Part shown: positions 52,800 through 61,771 of the stretch, piece after piece
How positions within the stretch are numbered: position 1 is the first letter of the stretch
Layout: each line of letters starts with the position of its first letter
NCBI RefSeq assembly: GCF_024198235.1
Contig: NZ_JAKCFB010000004.1
Span: 310,001-374,000 of the forward strand
Reading direction: 5' to 3'
DNA: 64,000 nucleotides
Source of the DNA: Myxococcus dinghuensis
GTDB lineage: Bacteria; Myxococcota; Myxococcia; Myxococcales; Myxococcaceae
Notes under the pieces: model-generated
What the model saw: the letters and a program-made list of their open reading frames with translations, nothing else
Told to the model about the DNA's origin: nothing
The model's database searches: none
Made by a program: the position numbers and the translations under genes

Positions 52800-54725
52800 A
52801 TGAAAAGTCTCAACGGTCGCTCCGCGACCCGAGTGCTGTTCGTCGCGGCGTGGGCGTGTCTGATGCCGGGCTGCGACTGGATTCTCCGTCCGCCACCGAA
52901 GCCGACGACGACCGAGGATCAACACTCGGCGGTGCTCGAGCACTTCAACAAGCGCCTGCCGCACGAGGACTTCGTCCGGCTGGACCTGGCGAACAACGAC
53001 CACTACGAGTACGCGAAGTTCCGCATCATGGAGGCCGCCGCCGCGGAGGCCGCCACGACGCAAGGGGTGCAGGCCCAGGCCCAGCAACAGCCCGTCCCGC
53101 GCCGGGACTTCGCCAAGGCCCTGGCGACGCTGGAGCGGGCGCGCGCGAAGGCGCTCCAGCAGGTCCCGGGCAAGAAGCCCACGGAGTGGCACTGCGACCA
53201 CTTCCTCCAGGTGGAGCCCGTCACCAAGAGGCCGGGGAACGACGGCCCCCGGCCGCTCCCCAACGAAACACCGGCCGCCTACCGCGTGGGGCCCTACGCC
53301 ACCTGCGCGGGCGGCGCCACGCACGTCTTCGCGGACGTCACCGCCTATGCGACCGACCTGTCCGGCCAGAAGAAGCAGGTGCTGGCGAAGACGGCCAGCG
53401 AGGAGCATGACGACGGCACCACGTTCGACGACGTCGCGGTGGCGGTGAAGACGCCGGTGGAGAAGAACCAGAAGCTGGTGGTCGAGTCGATGATGATCGC
53501 CAGCAACGAGAAGACCGGCGAGGAGCACGTCACCTTCGCCACGCTGGACTCGGCGTTCGCCGCGGCGCCGGTGAGCTACACGCTGGCGCACCCGCGCTAC
53601 GCCGGCACGGCGCCCTCGACGCTCAACCTCACCACCTGTCAGCTCCGCGGCGGCGGGGACTGCGACTACGCCATGGTGAGCAACAACGGCGGGACGCTGG
53701 TCCCCTTCGGTGCCGCCGCCCCCGCGGGCAGCGCGCTGCGCAAGACGAGCACGCCGAGCTGGACGGGAGATCCGGACAACTTCTTCCCCATCGCGACGGG
53801 CACGCCCTACGACGCCAACATGATCTACGTGCCCACCGACCTCACGTTCGACGCGGGCGCCAACGACACGGGTGACTGCCTCATCCAGACCGTCAACCCG
53901 ACGCTCACGCGCCTGCGCCTCATCAAGACCATCACCGGCGGCACCTGCACGACGCGCGCGGACCTCTCCGCCGCGTTCGTCCTCCCCCCGGTGGGACAGC
54001 CCCGCCCCCGCACCATGTCCATGCGTCAGCTCGTCGTCGTCACCTCGACCACCCCGGACGCGTCCGGCAGCGGCGCGGACTGCACGATGGCCCGCATCGT
54101 CAACGAGCCGGTCATCCTCTCCGCCACCGTGCAGACCACGGCCATCTGCGGCACGAGCCCCGCGGCCATCCCGCGCCTGGTGACCTTCACCAGCAACTCC
54201 ATGCCGGTCAGCCCGTTCAAGCTGAACGTCCTCAACAGCTGCATGGCCGAGGGCACGCGCATCACCCTGCCGGACGGCACACGGGCGCCCATCGAGACGC
54301 TCAAGGTCGGTGACAAGGTCCGCGCCAGCGCGAATGGCCGCGTGCTCACCATCCAGGACGTCATCTTCGGCCACGAGAACAAGCCGCTGGTCCGCCTCGA
54401 GGATGACCAGGGCCACGACGTGCGCCTCACGGAGCAGCACCCCGTGCTGCTCTCCTCCGGGCTCGTCGTCACCGCCGACAAGGTGCAGGTGACGGACAAG
54501 GTGCGCACCGAGAAGGGCACGTCCACCATCGTCGCCATCGAGCGGCTGCCCTACACGGGCAAGGTCTACAACCTCAAGCTGGGCACGCCCCAGGAGCTGG
54601 AGTCGCTGAGCCCCAGCGAGCGGACCATGTTCGCCGAAGGGCTGCTCGTCGGTGATGACTCCATGCAGCGCGAGCTGACGACGCCGCGCCGCGCTTCGCT
54701 GGAGACCTCCGCCGCGAAGCCGTGA
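52800..54725 (+). CDS. Lipoprotein with C-terminal Hint (hedgehog/intein-like) domain
   Basis: A 641-residue exported protein. The N-terminus MKSLNGRSATRVLFVAAWACLMPGC ends in a lipobox-like MPGC. Residues about 30-475 are an unknown secreted region with cysteine pairs. From Cys481 a Hint domain starts: SCMAEGTRITLPDGTRAPIETLKVGDKV (block A), VRLTEQHPVLL (block B with Thr544 and His547), and VYNLKLGTPQELESL and MFAEGLLVGD (block F). The usual C-terminal His-Asn of inteins is replaced by GD, and ~30 residues follow. Such domains can self-cleave at the N-terminal Cys by an acyl shift. The gene ends at a strong hairpin (54737-54760). Confidence 0.85.
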   Translation: MKSLNGRSATRVLFVAAWACLMPGCDWILRPPPKPTTTEDQHSAVLEHFNKRLPHEDFVRLDLANNDHYEYAKFRIMEAAAAEAATTQGVQAQAQQQPVPRRDFAKALATLERARAKALQQVPGKKPTEWHCDHFLQVEPVTKRPGNDGPRPLPNETPAAYRVGPYATCAGGATHVFADVTAYATDLSGQKKQVLAKTASEEHDDGTTFDDVAVAVKTPVEKNQKLVVESMMIASNEKTGEEHVTFATLDSAFAAAPVSYTLAHPRYAGTAPSTLNLTTCQLRGGGDCDYAMVSNNGGTLVPFGAAAPAGSALRKTSTPSWTGDPDNFFPIATGTPYDANMIYVPTDLTFDAGANDTGDCLIQTVNPTLTRLRLIKTITGGTCTTRADLSAAFVLPPVGQPRPRTMSMRQLVVVTSTTPDASGSGADCTMARIVNEPVILSATVQTTAICGTSPAAIPRLVTFTSNSMPVSPFKLNVLNSCMAEGTRITLPDGTRAPIETLKVGDKVRASANGRVLTIQDVIFGHENKPLVRLEDDQGHDVRLTEQHPVLLSSGLVVTADKVQVTDKVRTEKGTSTIVAIERLPYTGKVYNLKLGTPQELESLSPSERTMFAEGLLVGDDSMQRELTTPRRASLETSAAKP

Positions 54726-55514: not shown

Positions 55515-56414
55515 TCACGGAGGGGCGCCGGGCGCCAGCTCCGGGCGCGCCTCGCGCACGCGCCGCCGGGTGTCCCACCACGCCCACACCTTGGGGTGGA
55601 GCACCTTGAAGGCCAGGAACCACGCCGCGCCAGCGAGCAGGTCCACCGCATAGTGGTAGCGAAGGACCAGCGTGGAGAGGACCAGGAGCACCGCCACGGG
55701 AAGAAGGAGCCGGAAGCGAAGCGGGTGAGACACGCGGTCGTGCGCCAGCAACACCAACGTGATGTAGACGTGGAGGCTGGGGAAGACGTCGTAGGTCGAC
55801 GAACCGTGGGACACGACCGCCGCGTTGAGCCCCGTCCACCATCCGCCCTCGACAGGTGAGGAGAAGAGCGCCGGGAACGCCACCTCGGGCCCCTGGGCGG
55901 GCACCAGGTAGTACCCCACGAGGCCCAGGACATAGGCCGCGAAGACGTGACCGAAGAAGCGCTCGGCCCGCGCCCGTGGCCCCATGACGGCCCACGCCAT
56001 GGCCAGGTGCAGGTAGGCGTGGAAGGACAGGTAGCTCGCGCTGAAGAGGTCGTACACCCAGGGCGCGCTCCAGCGCTGGAGCCAGACGGACGGCGTGCTC
56101 CCCCCGAACAGCCACGCATCCATCCGCAGCAACGCCGCGTCGCGCACGGGGAGGCCGAGCGCGGGCACGGCGTCCTTCACCGACGCATAGAAGAAGAACG
56201 TCGCCACGTAGGCCAGCAGCAGCCGGGCCCGGAAGACGTGCGGCACCGCGTCCAGTCGCGCGCACGACGCCACCGCCAGCGCGAAGAGCCCCGTGGCCGC
56301 GAGCACCTGGAGCGTCACGGAGGCCCCCCACCCCGTCACGAGCCCGAGCGCCACCGACAGCACCAGCCCGAAGGCCGTCAACGCCACTTCATGGAGGTGG
56401 AGCCGCTCAACCAT
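55515..56414 (-). CDS. PAP2-superfamily membrane phosphatase/inositol phosphotransferase-like
   Basis: A 299-residue integral membrane protein with about six helices. The C-terminal half has the PAP2 (phosphatidic acid phosphatase 2) signature: FPSLHVYITLVLL and RYHYAVDLLAG, i.e. the second and third catalytic motifs, while the first (K-x6-RP) is not seen. This matches the PAP2_3 subgroup (Aur1/Ipt1-like inositolphosphotransferases) in which only SLH and H-x3-D are strong. It probably transfers or removes a phosphate-containing head group on a lipid. ATG 56414 overlaps the desaturase gene by eight bases, so the two are coupled. Confidence 0.8.
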   Translation of the reverse strand: MVERLHLHEVALTAFGLVLSVALGLVTGWGASVTLQVLAATGLFALAVASCARLDAVPHVFRARLLLAYVATFFFYASVKDAVPALGLPVRDAALLRMDAWLFGGSTPSVWLQRWSAPWVYDLFSASYLSFHAYLHLAMAWAVMGPRARAERFFGHVFAAYVLGLVGYYLVPAQGPEVAFPALFSSPVEGGWWTGLNAAVVSHGSSTYDVFPSLHVYITLVLLAHDRVSHPLRFRLLLPVAVLLVLSTLVLRYHYAVDLLAGAAWFLAFKVLHPKVWAWWDTRRRVREARPELAPGAPP

Positions 56415-57333
56415 CCGTGGAGGTCCGCCGCGCCTCCAGCGAGAGCCTTCCGGAGAGGACGCCCACCACGAACGACACATAGGACGGGATGAAGGGCGCG
56501 CCCTGGGCCAGCAACCCCGCGCGCAACTCCCGATGGAGGTGGGGGAGGTTGTACCAGGGCACGCGCGGATAGAGGTGGTGCTCGAGGTGGTAGTTCTCGT
56601 TGCACATGAAGAAGCGCGTCACCGGGTTGGAGAGGATGCTGCGCGAGCCCCGCACCGGGTGGTCGCTCTCCGGCAAGAAGGTGTGCTGACTCATGCCCCG
56701 GATGTTCACCAGGGTGTTGATGATGGCCATGGGGATGAGCCAGCCGTGCAGGAGCACGGGCCAGGACAGACACACCGTGGCGAGCACGCCCCCCGTCACC
56801 ACCGCCACCACCTCGAAGGCCACCCAACGCCGCTCGGAGGCGGTGCCATGCTTCCAGCCCAGGATGGGAATCAGGGTGATGTAGGCGGGATAGCCCAGCA
56901 GCAACCTCCCCCAATGCATCAGCACCTCCAGCCAACGCCGCCCCGTGTAGTTGGCGTAGTGGTCCGGGTCCTGCCCCCGCCCCAGGTCCCGATGGTGTCG
57001 CAGGTGGAGCACCTTGTAGGCCGCGAAGTCCTGGAGCACGGGCCACGCGCAGAGCATTCCTCCCAGGCGGTTGAGCCACGGGCGCCGTGACAGTCCTCCG
57101 TGGACCGCCTCGTGCGTGAACAGGCTGATGCCGTGCAGTGACGCCGCCGCGAGGACATAGAGGAGGCCCCGCGCGAGCCACGTCCCGGGGGTCGACGAGG
57201 CCTGCGCCACGTGGAGCCCCAACCCCGTCGCGCCGAGCCACAGGACGACGAAGACGACGAGCCTGGGAACATGGCGGGCGTCCACGTGTTCGAGCTCACG
57301 CAGTCGCTGGGGTGTCAGCAGCTCGGATGACAT
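56407..57333 (-). CDS. Membrane fatty acid desaturase
   Basis: A 308-residue membrane desaturase with four helices and three His boxes in order: HEAVHGG (74-80), HLRHH (110-114) and HLEHH in NENYHLEHHLYP. The last resembles beta-carotene-ketolase/FA_desaturase proteins (PF00487). It introduces a double bond in acyl chains in the membrane. It shares an eight-base overlap with the PAP2 gene downstream and is divergent from the DUF3419 gene. Family secure; regiochemistry unknown. Confidence 0.92.
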   Translation of the reverse strand: MSSELLTPQRLRELEHVDARHVPRLVVFVVLWLGATGLGLHVAQASSTPGTWLARGLLYVLAAASLHGISLFTHEAVHGGLSRRPWLNRLGGMLCAWPVLQDFAAYKVLHLRHHRDLGRGQDPDHYANYTGRRWLEVLMHWGRLLLGYPAYITLIPILGWKHGTASERRWVAFEVVAVVTGGVLATVCLSWPVLLHGWLIPMAIINTLVNIRGMSQHTFLPESDHPVRGSRSILSNPVTRFFMCNENYHLEHHLYPRVPWYNLPHLHRELRAGLLAQGAPFIPSYVSFVVGVLSGRLSLEARRTSTDG

Positions 57334-57410
57334 CGTCGGAGGGTCTCTTTCTGTGGTGGCACCCCTGGCTTAAGTTGACGGCATCACCGACGCAACCCTC
57401 GCCCCGACCG

Positions 57411-58391
57411 GTGCCTTTGAGTTCCACGCCCTTTCGCCTGAAGTTCGCCGTCGTCCGTGAAGACCCCGAGCTGGAGCAGGTCCTCCTCGAGCACACCCGC
57501 GCACGCGCCCTCCTCGCGGTCGCCTCGGGCGGCTGCTCGCTCCTCACGCTGGCGAACCGCCATCCCACCCTGGACGTGGTGGGCTTCGACTTCAATCCGA
57601 GGCAGCTCGACCATGTGCGGGCGAAGTTGGACGGGCTCGGCGCGAAGCCCCTCGCGCGCTACAACGTCCGGGACACGGCGACCACCGGCCTGAACCAGGG
57701 CGGAGAGTTCGAGGGGCTCTTCCGCACCCTGCGCCACTTCATCGAGGAGTTCGTCGCCCCCGCTCCGGAGCTCGCCCGCTTCTTCGAGCCGGAGACCTCC
57801 GAGCATCAACGCGAGGCCCTGCGCGCGCGCTGGTTCGCATCACCCTACTGGCCGGTGGCGTTCGCGCTCGCGTTCGCGGACGACTTCCTGCACGCCATGT
57901 TCGGCCCCGCGGCCACGCAGCACGCCACGCCGGGTTCGTACCCCGGCTACTTCCGGGCCACCTTCGAGCGGGGGTTGCGGCGCGAGGACGCCGCTCGCAA
58001 TCCCTATCTCCAGCATGTGCTGCTGGGCGCCTATCGTGAGGAGGACGCGCCCGGGTATCTGCGTGCGACGAAGCCGCCCTCCGTGACGCTCGTCCAGGGC
58101 TCCCTGCCGGACGTCCCGGAGCTGGGACGCTTCGACGTCATCTCCCTGTCCAACATCTTCGACTGGTCCGACGACGCGCTCGTCGGTGACTGGGCCGCGG
58201 TGTTGGCGAACCAGGCCAAGCCGGGCTGCGCCGTACTCCTGCGGCAGCTCAACAACCGCCGGGACCTGCGGCGCTTCTTCGGCGCGGCCTTCACCTTCGA
58301 CGACGCGCTGGGGCGCCGGTTGCAGAGCCAGGACCGGAGCCTCTTCTACGAACGCATCGAGGTCGGCTTCCGCCGGCCCGCCTCGTCATGA
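57411..58391 (+). CDS. DUF3419/BtaA-like S-adenosylmethionine aminocarboxypropyl transferase
   Basis: A protein of about 326 residues of the DUF3419 family, which includes BtaA (adds the 3-amino-3-carboxypropyl group of SAM to diacylglycerol for betaine lipids). The segment VREDPELEQVLLE, the SAM-binding AVASGGCSLLTL, then VVGFDFNPRQLDHVRAKL and DVISLSNIFDWSDD match the family. The start is uncertain: GTG 57411 and TTG 57417 leave room for divergent promoters; an ATG at 57327 would sit inside the desaturase start. A TTGACG hexamer at 57375-57380 may be the -35 box. The next gene overlaps its stop (ATGA). A BtaB methyltransferase is not present. Confidence 0.8.
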   Translation: MPLSSTPFRLKFAVVREDPELEQVLLEHTRARALLAVASGGCSLLTLANRHPTLDVVGFDFNPRQLDHVRAKLDGLGAKPLARYNVRDTATTGLNQGGEFEGLFRTLRHFIEEFVAPAPELARFFEPETSEHQREALRARWFASPYWPVAFALAFADDFLHAMFGPAATQHATPGSYPGYFRATFERGLRREDAARNPYLQHVLLGAYREEDAPGYLRATKPPSVTLVQGSLPDVPELGRFDVISLSNIFDWSDDALVGDWAAVLANQAKPGCAVLLRQLNNRRDLRRFFGAAFTFDDALGRRLQSQDRSLFYERIEVGFRRPASS

Positions 58392-59308
58392 ACGAGGTCC
58401 GCTACGCCGTCCTCCGCCCCGACACGCTCGGGCCCTACGTCGAGCGGCTGCGTCGGCTCGAGCAGGGCATCGAGTACCCCATCGCGGATGGCGCCGACCA
58501 CTTCTTCATCGACCACGGCCCCGTCTACCACCCGTTCTTCTCGACCCTGGGTGAGGCCTACTTCCTGCTCGCGCTCCAGGGCGACACGCTGCTGGGGTCC
58601 GTGACAGGTGTCGCACGCAAGGTCTCCCGCGGGACACGCGCCATCGACGCGCTCTACATCTGCGACCTGAAGGTGACACCGTCCGCGCGCGGCACCGGCC
58701 TGGCGCGCAGGCTCATCCTCCAGGGCCTGACGTACCTCTTCCGGATCCCCGCGCTGCGCGGCACCCGGTTCCTCTACGGCGCGGCCATGCGCGGCTCACG
58801 CGGGGACGTGATGCACTCGGTCCGGGGCTGGAACCCGTTGAAGCTGGGGCGCCCGTCCAGCCGTCAGGCGCTCTTCTTCGTTCCACCCGCCCGCCTCGCC
58901 GGCGTCGACCCGGCGCGCGCACCCGAGGTTCCTCGCGGAGACGTCCTCCGGCTGGGCCCAGCCCCGTCGCGGCCCCTGGAGGGCACGGGCTGGTGCTCCA
59001 CCCGTGGCAGCAAGGACTTCCAGCTCCGCTCCACCGGTCGGCCCTGGCCCCTGGTCCACCTGGCCGCGCCGCCCGAGGCCTGGACCCACGGCTGGGCACG
59101 CTACGTGCGCGACTGCGGCCGGGAGCTCGCCGACCGGGGCGGAGACGTCCTCGCCTGCTTCGGCCTCGACGAGCGACTGGGGCCACAGCTCGACTGGCTC
59201 CGCGCCGAGGGGCTCGTGCCCGACGCCACGTGCACCCTCTATTCGCTCGACCTCACCCTTTCCTCGGGGGCGCCATCATGGGTGCATCTTCCCTCGTCCG
59301 AAATCTGA
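58388..59308 (+). CDS. GNAT family acetyltransferase
   Basis: A 306-residue protein with a GNAT fold in the first ~165 residues: ICDLKVTPSARGTGLARRLI contains the acyl-CoA-binding RGTGLA, and TRFLYGAAMRGS follows. The C-terminal ~130 residues have a second, more divergent half. It should N-acylate an amine or amino acid. It is coupled to the DUF3419 gene by ATGA and its last 31 bases overlap the start of the di-iron protein gene, forming a three-gene operon. A likely substrate is the amino group made by the upstream enzyme, but that is inference. Confidence 0.85.
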   Translation: MNEVRYAVLRPDTLGPYVERLRRLEQGIEYPIADGADHFFIDHGPVYHPFFSTLGEAYFLLALQGDTLLGSVTGVARKVSRGTRAIDALYICDLKVTPSARGTGLARRLILQGLTYLFRIPALRGTRFLYGAAMRGSRGDVMHSVRGWNPLKLGRPSSRQALFFVPPARLAGVDPARAPEVPRGDVLRLGPAPSRPLEGTGWCSTRGSKDFQLRSTGRPWPLVHLAAPPEAWTHGWARYVRDCGRELADRGGDVLACFGLDERLGPQLDWLRAEGLVPDATCTLYSLDLTLSSGAPSWVHLPSSEI

Positions 59309-59991
59309 GCCTCCGGAACCACGTCTCCGCGCTGAAGACGCAATGGAACGTCCTGGAGTCCTCGGACTACCTGCGCGCGCTGCGCGACGGCGCGTTCGAG
59401 CGGGACGACTTCGTGGAGACGCAGCTCCAGTTCTTCGCCGCGGTGGCGCACTTCCCGCGACCGATGGCGGTGCTCGCCAGCCGGCTGCCGCGTCCCGAGC
59501 AGCGCCTCCCCCTGGTGGAGAACCTCTTCGACGAGCATGGCCGCGGCTCGCTCGCCCACGGCCACGAGAGCACGTTCCGCCTCCTGCTGGAGCGGCTCGG
59601 CGCCGACACGGGACGTCTGGACCGGGGCGACTTCGGCCCCGCCGTGCGCACGTTCAACGCCGCCCTGTCCGGCATCGGCACGTGCGAACCGCCCCACGTC
59701 GGGCTGGCGGTGTTCGGCATCATCGAGGACCTGTTCAGCGGCATCTCCCTGGCGCTGGGCCGCGGCATCGTCGCTCGCGGTTGGCTCGCCTCCGACCAGA
59801 TGGTCCACTACCCCACGCACGCGACGCTGGACGAGGAGCACGCCGACGGCTTCTACCGGCAGCTCGACGCGCCCCACGCCTCCGACACGCGCATGGCGCG
59901 GGACATCGAGCAGGGCCTCGCGCTCGGCGGACACCTGCTCCTCGGCCTCTACGAAGGCCTGTACCGGGCACGGCGCGAGCGGGGTGGCTGA
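59278..59991 (+). CDS. Haem-oxygenase-like di-iron (HDO/PqqC-like) protein
   Basis: A 237-residue all-alpha protein of the TenA/PqqC/HDO superfamily. Family segments are VETQLQFFAAVAHFPRPMA, ENLFDEHGRGSLAHGHESTF, and HATLDEEHADGFY, where Glu, His and Asp residues would bind two irons. Such proteins catalyse oxidative cleavage or oxidation of fatty acids, amino acids or headgroups. The start overlaps the GNAT gene by 31 bases. It closes the DUF3419-GNAT-HDO operon and converges on the MBL hydrolase gene nine bases away. Assignment is by pattern, moderately sure. Confidence 0.8.
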   Translation: MGASSLVRNLSLRNHVSALKTQWNVLESSDYLRALRDGAFERDDFVETQLQFFAAVAHFPRPMAVLASRLPRPEQRLPLVENLFDEHGRGSLAHGHESTFRLLLERLGADTGRLDRGDFGPAVRTFNAALSGIGTCEPPHVGLAVFGIIEDLFSGISLALGRGIVARGWLASDQMVHYPTHATLDEEHADGFYRQLDAPHASDTRMARDIEQGLALGGHLLLGLYEGLYRARRERGG

Positions 59992-60000
59992 CCCACGCCT

Positions 60001-60843
60001 TCAGGCCGCGGTGGCCAGGGAACGGGCCTGGAACCGGTCCATCTCCGTGGCGCAGTGGGCGGAGAAGACGGTCACCTCGTCGGCGTGGTCCCGGCTGAGC
60101 TGGCGCAGCCGCTCCTGGTTCTTCACTCGCGCGGCGTTGTTCGTCGAGCGCATCCGCTGGAAGAGCGCCAGGCCCATGGGGCTGCGGGGTGACACCGGGT
60201 CCATCTCCCGGTGGGAGAAGTACGAGTCCCCGGCATGCAGCAACCACCGGCCCTCCGTCTTCACCGCGACGCCGCAGTGCCCATCCGAGTGGCCCACCAG
60301 CGGCACCAGCAACACCTCCGAGGACAGGCCGGGAATCACCCGCACCGACTCGAACCCGAACCAGCGCTCGCCCTCCACCGTGTAGGGCCGCCACTGCACG
60401 CCGTGGGACCACTGTTGGGGCCGGTAGCCGTAGGTCTTGCTGCGACCGACGGGCTTCATCGCCGCCGTGTGCTCGTCGCGGAACACGTGCACCTGGGCCT
60501 GCGGGAAGTCCGCGAGCCCGCCGATGTGGTCCAGGTCGAGGTGCGTCGGCACGACGTGGCGCACGTCCTCCCGTTTGAAGCCCAGCCGCTCCACCTGGGA
60601 CACGGCCGCCTCGCGCGGGTCCAGCGCCGGCGCGCTGCGCGAGAGGAAGCTGGAGCCCAGTCGGGCCTTGTTCTGGATGTCGTGCATCCCCAGGCCGGTG
60701 TCCACCAGCACGAGGCCCTCGTTCGTCTCCAGCACCAGGCAATGGCAGACCATCCGGGCGCGGGAGAAGAGGCCTCCCTCGCCCAGGACGAAGCGGGAGC
60801 TGGCGGGGCACATGGTTCCGCAGTTGATGTGGTGGACTCGCAT
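60001..60843 (-). CDS. Metallo-beta-lactamase fold hydrolase
   Basis: A 280-residue MBL-fold protein. The metal motif is THLDLDHIGG (H-x-D-x-D-H), further ligands are HSDGH, AGDSYF and SAHC. The N-terminus MRVHHINCGTMCP and the general layout resemble AttM/AidC-type N-acyl homoserine lactonases and glyoxalase II, so it could hydrolyse a lactone or thioester. It is divergent from an AraC-type regulator, with 76 bases and a hairpin between, suggesting that regulator controls it. Cytoplasmic. Confidence 0.87.
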   Translation of the reverse strand: MRVHHINCGTMCPASSRFVLGEGGLFSRARMVCHCLVLETNEGLVLVDTGLGMHDIQNKARLGSSFLSRSAPALDPREAAVSQVERLGFKREDVRHVVPTHLDLDHIGGLADFPQAQVHVFRDEHTAAMKPVGRSKTYGYRPQQWSHGVQWRPYTVEGERWFGFESVRVIPGLSSEVLLVPLVGHSDGHCGVAVKTEGRWLLHAGDSYFSHREMDPVSPRSPMGLALFQRMRSTNNAARVKNQERLRQLSRDHADEVTVFSAHCATEMDRFQARSLATAA

Positions 60844-60899
60844 CGGAAGACCTCGGGGATGAGCGGTGATGGCCCACAAGGTAGGAAGGTGGGTCCGGA

Positions 60900-60918
60900 G
60901 CCGATTGGAGAAATCGGC
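60900..60918. promoter_or_regulatory. Inverted repeat with the ribosome binding site in its loop
   Basis: GCCGATT (60900-60906) and AATCGGC (60912-60918) form a perfect seven-base inverted repeat; the five-base loop GGAGA contains the Shine-Dalgarno sequence of the AraC gene, whose ATG is at 60920. It may be an operator for the regulator or a switch for translation. Confidence 0.5.
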
Positions 60919-60919
60919 C

Positions 60920-61771
60920 ATGGCGCCTCGCCTCCGGGTCCGTCGCGTTGAATGCGACGGCGGCCTGGGTGATTCTCGGGAGGTGACGTCCTCCTCGTTC
61001 CAGCGCGCGCCCACGGGGCCACTCTCCAGCTTCATCCGGGGAATCCGGGCCATGGCGCGCGGCCCTCGGAGTGACGGCTCGTACGTCCGCCTGCCGGATG
61101 GGGAGGCGGAGCTCATCTTCCGCTTCACGCCCACGCGCGGCGACGCCTACGTCGTGGGGACGCGGCAGAGCGTGTTCCACAAGCAGGGGGACGACGTGCC
61201 GCCAGAGGCCATCGCCGTGCGCTTCAAGGCGGGCGGGGCCTATCCCTTCTTCGGCGTCCCCATGTCGACGCTCAACAACCGCGTCGTGTCGCTCGACACG
61301 CTGTGGGGGCGAGAGGGCGCGCTGCTGCGCGAGGCCCTCTGCGAGACCTCGGACATGACCGAGCGGGTCCGGCAGGTCGAGTCGACGCTCGCCGCGCGCC
61401 TGCGCTCCGGTGAGGTGTTCGAGCCCGCCTCCGCGCACGTGGTGCGGCGGGCCGTGCGCACCCTCACCCAGGCCACGGAGCTGCCTCGCGTCGACGCGCT
61501 CGCGCGCGAGCTGGGCGTCAGCGAGCGTCAACTGCGCCGCGCCTTCGACGACGTGGTGGGCATGGGCCCCAAGGCCTTCGCGCGCATCGTCCGCTTCCAG
61601 CGCGCGGTGCGGGCCTCGCGGCGCACGTCGTCCCCGGACTGGGGCGCCATCGCCGCCGCCACCGGCTACTACGACCAGGCCCACCTCATCACCGAGTTCC
61701 GCGACCTGACGGGCGTCACGCCCCGGGCCCTGCTGCGCGCGGAGGCGTCCACCGCGTCGCTGACCGGCTGA
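60920..61771 (+). CDS. AraC family transcriptional regulator
   Basis: A 283-residue regulator. The N-terminal ~150 residues are a DUF6597-like sensing domain (GPLSSFIRGI, LPDGEAELIF, VVGTRQSVF) and the C-terminal ~100 are an AraC DNA-binding domain with two helix-turn-helices (VDALARELGVSERQLRRAFDDVVGMGPKAFARIVRFQRAV and WGAIAAATGYYDQAHLITEFRDLTGVTP). ATG 60920 is preceded at nine bases by GGAG; a GTG at 60983 is a possible shorter start. It is divergent from the MBL gene, its likely target, and ends six bases from the convergent AlkZ-like gene. Confidence 0.9.
   Translation: MAPRLRVRRVECDGGLGDSREVTSSSFQRAPTGPLSSFIRGIRAMARGPRSDGSYVRLPDGEAELIFRFTPTRGDAYVVGTRQSVFHKQGDDVPPEAIAVRFKAGGAYPFFGVPMSTLNNRVVSLDTLWGREGALLREALCETSDMTERVRQVESTLAARLRSGEVFEPASAHVVRRAVRTLTQATELPRVDALARELGVSERQLRRAFDDVVGMGPKAFARIVRFQRAVRASRRTSSPDWGAIAAATGYYDQAHLITEFRDLTGVTPRALLRAEASTASLTG

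Follow-up and report, generated by a model that had tools for sequence, protein, structure and literature searches.

The window analysed here, a stretch of 64,000 nucleotides from Myxococcus dinghuensis (contig NZ_JAKCFB010000004.1, positions 310,001 to 374,000 of the forward strand), contains at positions 55515-59991 a locus of five genes in two divergent units. It is near certain that three of these genes constitute a functional unit. They encode a DUF3419 protein related to BtaA, a double-GNAT N-acyltransferase and a haem-oxygenase-like di-iron oxidase (HDO), and they recur together in Myxococcota, Poribacteria, a betaproteobacterium and other metagenome-assembled genomes (MAGs). Literature searches found no description of such a DUF3419-GNAT-HDO cassette. 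It is tentatively proposed, with somewhat less than even confidence, that the locus works as a self-contained unit which makes an amino acid lipid both oxidised and N-acylated; the reactions, acceptor and acyl length are predictions. The features of the locus, numbered by position in the window, are as follows.

55515-56414, minus strand: PAP2_3-type membrane phosphatase/phosphotransferase (PF14378, 1.6e-16); reading frame open from 56480, likely start at Met 56414
56407-57333, minus strand: predicted membrane fatty-acid-desaturase-like di-iron protein (PF00487 FA_desaturase, 9e-48)
57334-57416, no strand: divergent intergenic region; a stretch CATGCC(A/C)TA is kept in most relatives
57417-58391, plus strand: DUF3419 (BtaA-like) S-adenosylmethionine (SAM) enzyme, predicted 3-amino-3-carboxypropyl transferase (PF11899, 4e-23)
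58388-59308, plus strand: predicted double-GNAT N-acyltransferase of the N-myristoyltransferase (NMT) type (PF00583, 9e-5; C-terminal ...SSEI)
59278-59991, plus strand: predicted HDO (PF14518 Haem_oxygenas_2, 7e-19)

Linkage and co-inheritance of the genes

A DUF3419 peptide-pattern scan, which covered one genome per species (84,980 species) and was blind to neighbouring genes, yielded 49 loci. The GNAT gene adjoins the DUF3419 gene in 47 of these and the HDO gene in 45. Two loci without the full trio (L053 and L086) are both cut by contig ends, and in L064 the GNAT gene is adjacent with the HDO gene on another contig. The order is DUF3419-GNAT-HDO in 24 loci, DUF3419-HDO-GNAT in 18 and HDO-DUF3419-GNAT in two, with a divergent HDO gene in one; of the 18, 11 are titled Poribacteria and one is the complete chromosome of Betaproteobacteria bacterium UKL13-2, and the usual binning doubt applies to taxa taken from MAG titles. 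Beyond closely related loci no further neighbour family recurs; the remaining listed families are either antisense shadows of trio genes or common chiefly to Poribacteria. Among the neighbours of the trio, no siderophore receptor or transporter, precursor gene or methyltransferase recurs.

A tblastn search against plasmids found that one from Mycobacterium riyadhense carries the trio in the order DUF3419, HDO, GNAT, followed 106 bases past the trio by a gene for an MMPL-family transporter (PF03176, 1e-116). All three M. riyadhense proteins carry the Pfam domains of the trio, and the GNAT ends in Ile. MmpL proteins are lipid exporters. A scan of viral contigs confirmed none of 18 stretches.

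Co-occurrence was followed in 195 Myxococcota genomes, with DUF3419 matches above 300 bits counted as strong and GNAT matches accepted at E<=1e-8. Strong DUF3419 genes are present in 39 genomes and GNAT genes in 38; both occur in 37, where they are always adjacent, and the HDO gene is also adjacent in 36 of the 37. The contig of G161, which has DUF3419 and no GNAT, stops 16 bases beyond the DUF3419 match. In genera g5, g29 and g33, certain species hold the full set and others none, and the set is therefore gained or lost as a unit. The pairwise protein distances of the trio correlate across 39 loci (r = 0.905, 0.818 and 0.832, with none of 999 shuffles as high), which shows shared descent of the cassette rather than function.

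A second assembly was found in a different myxobacterial genus, g31, where genes for a GNAT, an HDO, a DUF3419 protein and an Asp/Asn hydroxylase (Asp_Arg_Hydrox) lie in a row at nine loci (L159-L167) in eight genomes (G117, G118, G120, G121, G122, G123, G127 and G131). The HDO gene is present at all nine loci (one partial) and the GNAT gene at eight, the ninth locus meeting a contig end; a diverged copy, L167, has no hydroxylase within the stretch examined. The g31 DUF3419 falls in a different clade from the trio DUF3419 (100/100). The g31 GNAT is short (244 residues), and its best Pfam match, FeeM, is weak (31.9 bits against a cut-off of 27); this label is treated as weak because FeeM matches (E<=0.001) occur in 80 of the 195 genomes. 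The independent assembly, twice over, of the same three enzyme kinds is the strongest hint of one shared substrate line.

The desaturase and PAP2 genes have a narrower distribution than the trio. With thresholds of E<=1e-25 for the desaturase and E<=1e-15 for PAP2, both applied across 86 Myxococcaceae genomes, the desaturase is present in 21, and in all 21 it adjoins the trio; it occurs in 21 of the 28 genomes with a strong DUF3419 and in none of the other 58. PAP2 gave 24 matches, 21 of them at the trio locus after the desaturase and three weak ones (62-64 bits) elsewhere. Three of the 21 desaturase-bearing genomes come from two other genera and keep the divergent arrangement and PAP2, with desaturase identity of 66-69%. 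The desaturase has three histidine boxes, read by eye as HEAVH, HLRHH and HLEHH, and the PF00487 domain; against NCBIfam it gave weak partial matches only, the best to GntB (75.6 bits against a cut-off of 380).

Within the genus, PAP2 adjoins the desaturase in all 27 genomes, and the five genes stand in identical order at all 27 loci; because the order is kept by every genus genome, the arrangement is far beyond chance. Each of the 27 has a single strong DUF3419 copy (G011 additionally lists a short fragment), and the copy in the window is the only one found in its genome. The preliminary description of the locus had treated the five genes as one functional unit. The linked and co-inherited trio retains that standing as the core; the desaturase and PAP2 do not share it equally, and belong to the system in Myxococcaceae as an add-on outside that core. 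The five genes as one ancient unit were rejected, the desaturase and PAP2 occurring, among the loci read, only in those of Myxococcaceae.

Other structural claims of that description fared well. Its five genes in two divergent units were confirmed, and all five open reading frames are present with the stated domains in Pfam, the GNAT match lying barely above its cut-off. The locus contains no BtaB-like methyltransferase gene, as had been noted. The overlaps of 4-31 bases hold within the units: eight bases between desaturase and PAP2, given the internal Met (56414) as the PAP2 start, four between DUF3419 and GNAT (58388-58391) and 31 between GNAT and HDO (59278-59308). Between the units the picture changes. 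An ATG at 57327 as the DUF3419 start would intrude seven bases into the divergent desaturase start, and the start is placed at 57417 instead because homologues start directly ahead of LKFAVVRED. The true start is thus probably the TTG at 57417, which would separate the two units by about 83 bases.

Predicted activities of the core enzymes

BtaA makes the homoserine ether head group of betaine lipids, and BtaB is its methyltransferase partner. The trio DUF3419 proteins share with BtaA the DUF3419 domain and a glycine-rich SAM motif followed by a D-x-N-P strand; PF11899 was found in all 39 aligned members, which carry invariant motifs. The trio differs from the BtaA/BtaB system in having an HDO and a double GNAT as partners in place of BtaB, and in the separate clade of its DUF3419. 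In a tree of 40 rows, the trio DUF3419 proteins group together in a separate clade (100/98 for 23 rows), with the long M. riyadhense branch placed unsurely, and Sinorhizobium BtaA (L095) lies elsewhere on a long branch; its relative L093 is followed by a BtaB-like gene. The window protein has about 320 residues, compared with 391 in Sinorhizobium BtaA. Its structural model (pLDDT 95.8) shows a Rossmann core of the class I SAM type that is interrupted by a large helical insertion, and a VIA comparison gave methyltransferases as the closest structures (Z up to 12.6 over 150-200 residues). Foldseek returned no match below 0.001 for this model, and a PDB sequence search gave nothing significant (best 0.052, with a profile). 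In the closest relative of the trio clade (L034/L091), an open reading frame for a PlsC-type acyltransferase (PF01553) overlaps DUF3419, and there is no HDO or GNAT.

For the HDO, PF14518 was found in all 36 members, and a profile search matched CADD (4e-12), HrmI (7e-9) and BesC (4e-8). Alignments place Glu86, His96, Glu150, His181, Asp185 and His188 on the ligands of CADD. This 3H/3C set is invariant in 47 of 47 sequences at the first five positions and kept in 46 of 47 at His188 (Asn in one); Glu47, which might serve as a further ligand, is conserved in 43 of the 47. The window HDO shares the fold family and the 3H/3C ligands of CADD, BesC and HrmI, and differs from them in its low identity and in its operon partners. 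BesC is an enzyme of free amino acids, and RohS is an N-oxygenase. HDO enzymes are described as catalysing, among other reactions, C-C cleavage, N-oxygenation and desaturation (PMC13108848, PMC13185094). On Streptomyces plasmids (L096-L098), HDO homologues about 60% identical to that of M. riyadhense follow an EF-hand gene in three annotated regions; in the annotated regions read, no DUF3419 or GNAT gene directly adjoins them.

The GNAT was modelled with AlphaFold2 from 37 sequences (mean pLDDT 90.7, with residues 138-152 poorly defined). Acetyltransf_1 was found in 32 of the 37 members, the match in the window protein being weak and N-terminal; a PDB search with the single sequence gave no match. 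Foldseek ranked the histidine acetyltransferase HisAT (9emd) first, at a TM-score of 0.52, followed by NMTs, with TM-scores of about 0.5-0.6. In VIA-align 2, all 50 matches listed were NMTs (Z 16.2-17.0, 252-261 residues, 3.6-4.2 Å), so that other double GNATs may score below 16.2 or be unranked. Nearly all of these alignments run from residue 1 to residue 306 of the model and end on the C-terminal residue of NMT (496 in HsNMT1).

Of 48 complete GNAT sequences, 47 end in Ile and one in Val, and S-E or S-D precedes this last residue in 43, whereas the C-terminal residues of DUF3419 and HDO vary, with 11 residue types each. Constraint from the 31-base overlap with HDO was rejected as the source of this end. 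The same end is found where the GNAT gene is last or non-overlapping, and it is therefore no by-product of the overlap, because it is kept where nothing downstream overlaps GNAT. For human NMT, the catalytic base is described as the C-terminal carboxylate of Gln496 (PMC7048800), a feature said to set NMT apart from all other GNATs (PMC4964394).

NMT was long held to be confined to eukaryotes. The window GNAT resembles eukaryotic NMT in its double-GNAT fold from end to end and in its invariant C-terminal residue, which aligns with the catalytic C-terminus of NMT; it differs in being about 10% identical, shorter, without a Pfam NMT match and encoded within a metabolic operon. Like HisAT/NAT16, it is a double GNAT expected to act on an amino acid amine, but HisAT is described as stopping directly after its last strand (PMC12219266), whereas the end of this GNAT is invariant and aligned with that of NMT. 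The same report notes that certain double GNATs of bacteria and archaea have NMT-type ends, without a function; the NMT-type fold in bacteria is therefore not new, and literature searches found nothing on the present operon context. OlsB, GluB and FeeM synthases join an acyl chain to an amino acid through an amide bond, the chemistry also expected here (PMC11631085), but they belong to other GNAT families (PF13444 and PF21926, aminolipid and N-acyl amino acid synthases), which matched none of the 37 members at E<=0.1. On its model, the GNAT looks like an NMT. A distant double-GNAT relative (L139; G187:C267; 200 bits) ends in Val and has no adjoining DUF3419 or HDO gene.

Proposed pathway and competing explanations

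The family and SAM fold of the DUF3419 protein suggest that it would move a 3-amino-3-carboxypropyl group from SAM onto an acceptor, so that the product bears a free amino acid head. The HDO, with its conserved ligands, would use its di-iron site and O2 to desaturate, cleave or N-oxygenate the amino-acid part, in the manner of BesC and HrmI. The fold and invariant C-terminus of the GNAT suggest that it would use acyl-CoA to acylate the amine, its own C-terminal carboxylate serving as base; these two steps could occur in either order. In Myxococcaceae, the desaturase and PAP2 from the divergent unit may shape the acyl chain or provide the dephosphorylated acceptor. Two claims of the preliminary description bear on this pathway. 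N-acylation of an amino group by the GNAT is retained as the best guess, from the model and the NMT-type C-terminus. An undescribed amino-lipid fits the confinement of the desaturase and PAP2 to trio loci and the Mycobacterium MMPL gene, and as the core idea of that description it gains support; action of DUF3419 on diacylglycerol, or formation of a homoserine ether, is conjectural, the DUF3419 clade being separate from Sinorhizobium BtaA.

A broader proposal is that a bacterial NMT-type enzyme, by means of its own C-terminal carboxylate, caps a SAM-derived, HDO-oxidised amino acid with a fatty acyl chain, in a pathway that crosses phyla (myxobacteria, Poribacteria and a mycobacterium), was assembled twice from different subfamilies and would yield a new class of oxidised N-acyl amino-lipids; it is doubtful, though not far-fetched. 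The trio would bring together in a single testable pathway three families whose assignment is poor (non-BtaA DUF3419 proteins, this HDO clade and the NMT-type double GNATs of bacteria), and it gives genomic context to the bacterial NMT-type folds noticed earlier. If the pathway is correct, it would represent a new lipid or signal class for myxobacteria, sponge symbionts (Poribacteria) and a Mycobacterium plasmid. As the trio is present in every genome of a well-studied genus, it can be deleted directly and its product searched for.

Several observations weigh against an N-acyl amino acid lipid, and some of them favour a small water-soluble metabolite, such as an acetylated or N-hydroxylated (hydroxamate-like) amino acid, which DUF3419 would build and the HDO would N-oxygenate, and to which the GNAT would add a short acyl group. 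Most trio loci outside Myxococcaceae have no adjoining lipid gene. The NMT and HisAT folds are close, HisAT heads the Foldseek ranking, and no Pfam NMT model matches any of the 37 GNAT members at E<=0.1. HisAT-type double GNATs are reported to favour short acyl-CoA (PMC12219266), and by analogy double GNATs may prefer acetyl. The HDO relatives HrmI and RohS are N-oxygenases. A water-soluble product is nevertheless considered unlikely, if still to be reckoned with: the GNAT C-terminus is of the NMT rather than the HisAT type (PMC12219266), no siderophore receptor or transporter recurs, and the balance tips to a lipid product because the desaturase, PAP2 and MMPL genes accompany the trio. The core itself also has exceptions. 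L091 (in G057) is the only one of the 49 DUF3419 loci truly without both GNAT and HDO, G187 has a distant GNAT alone, and the HDO family also occurs apart from the trio, for example beside the EF-hand gene on Streptomyces plasmids.

The remaining alternatives turn on the DUF3419 protein and on the acyl acceptor. A betaine-lipid-like product, in which DUF3419 acts as a true BtaA on diacylglycerol supplied by PAP2 and the HDO and GNAT decorate the head group instead of BtaB, would fit the shared Pfam family, the adjoining PAP2 and desaturase and the lack of BtaB; it is distinctly unlikely in view of the different clade, the shorter protein and the many lineages, most of the total, that carry the trio without PAP2 or desaturase. 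PF11899 has no assigned function, and the trio clade may be ordinary methyltransferases that, with their partners, modify an existing metabolite. The class I SAM fold, the proximity of methyltransferases in structure and weak Methyltransf_12/25 matches point that way, but in the window protein those matches lie under the Pfam cut-offs and PF11899 well above its own, which makes this explanation very unlikely. Least likely is protein modification, with a bacterial NMT acylating protein N-termini or lysines after DUF3419 and HDO have prepared a modified residue: the GNAT architecture is NMT-like, but no precursor gene recurs, and the closest solved relatives of the HDO include the free-amino-acid enzymes BesC and HrmI.

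Flanking genes and other DUF3419 neighbourhoods

Immediately downstream of the HDO gene, positions 60001-61771 encode an AHL-lactonase-like metallo-hydrolase and an AraC regulator. These metallo-lactamase and AraC genes were rejected as members of the system because, of the loci read, only some from close relatives (L036, L043, L044 and L060) have them next to the trio. On the other side of the locus, positions 52800-54725 encode a lipoprotein-like protein that carries a Hint (intein-like) domain at its C-terminus, for which the Pfam Hint matches lie under their cut-offs.

One record among the loci, L047 (BNCN01000001.1), is titled Comamonas sp. KCTC 72670 and is probably a mislabelled Myxococcus. 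Other DUF3419 clades, which lie apart from the trio group in the tree, stand beside an AMP-ligase and MMPL transporter, a phosphatidylserine decarboxylase, or a squalene/phytoene synthase (L147, L146 and L149). These neighbourhoods may represent further uncharted DUF3419 pathways.

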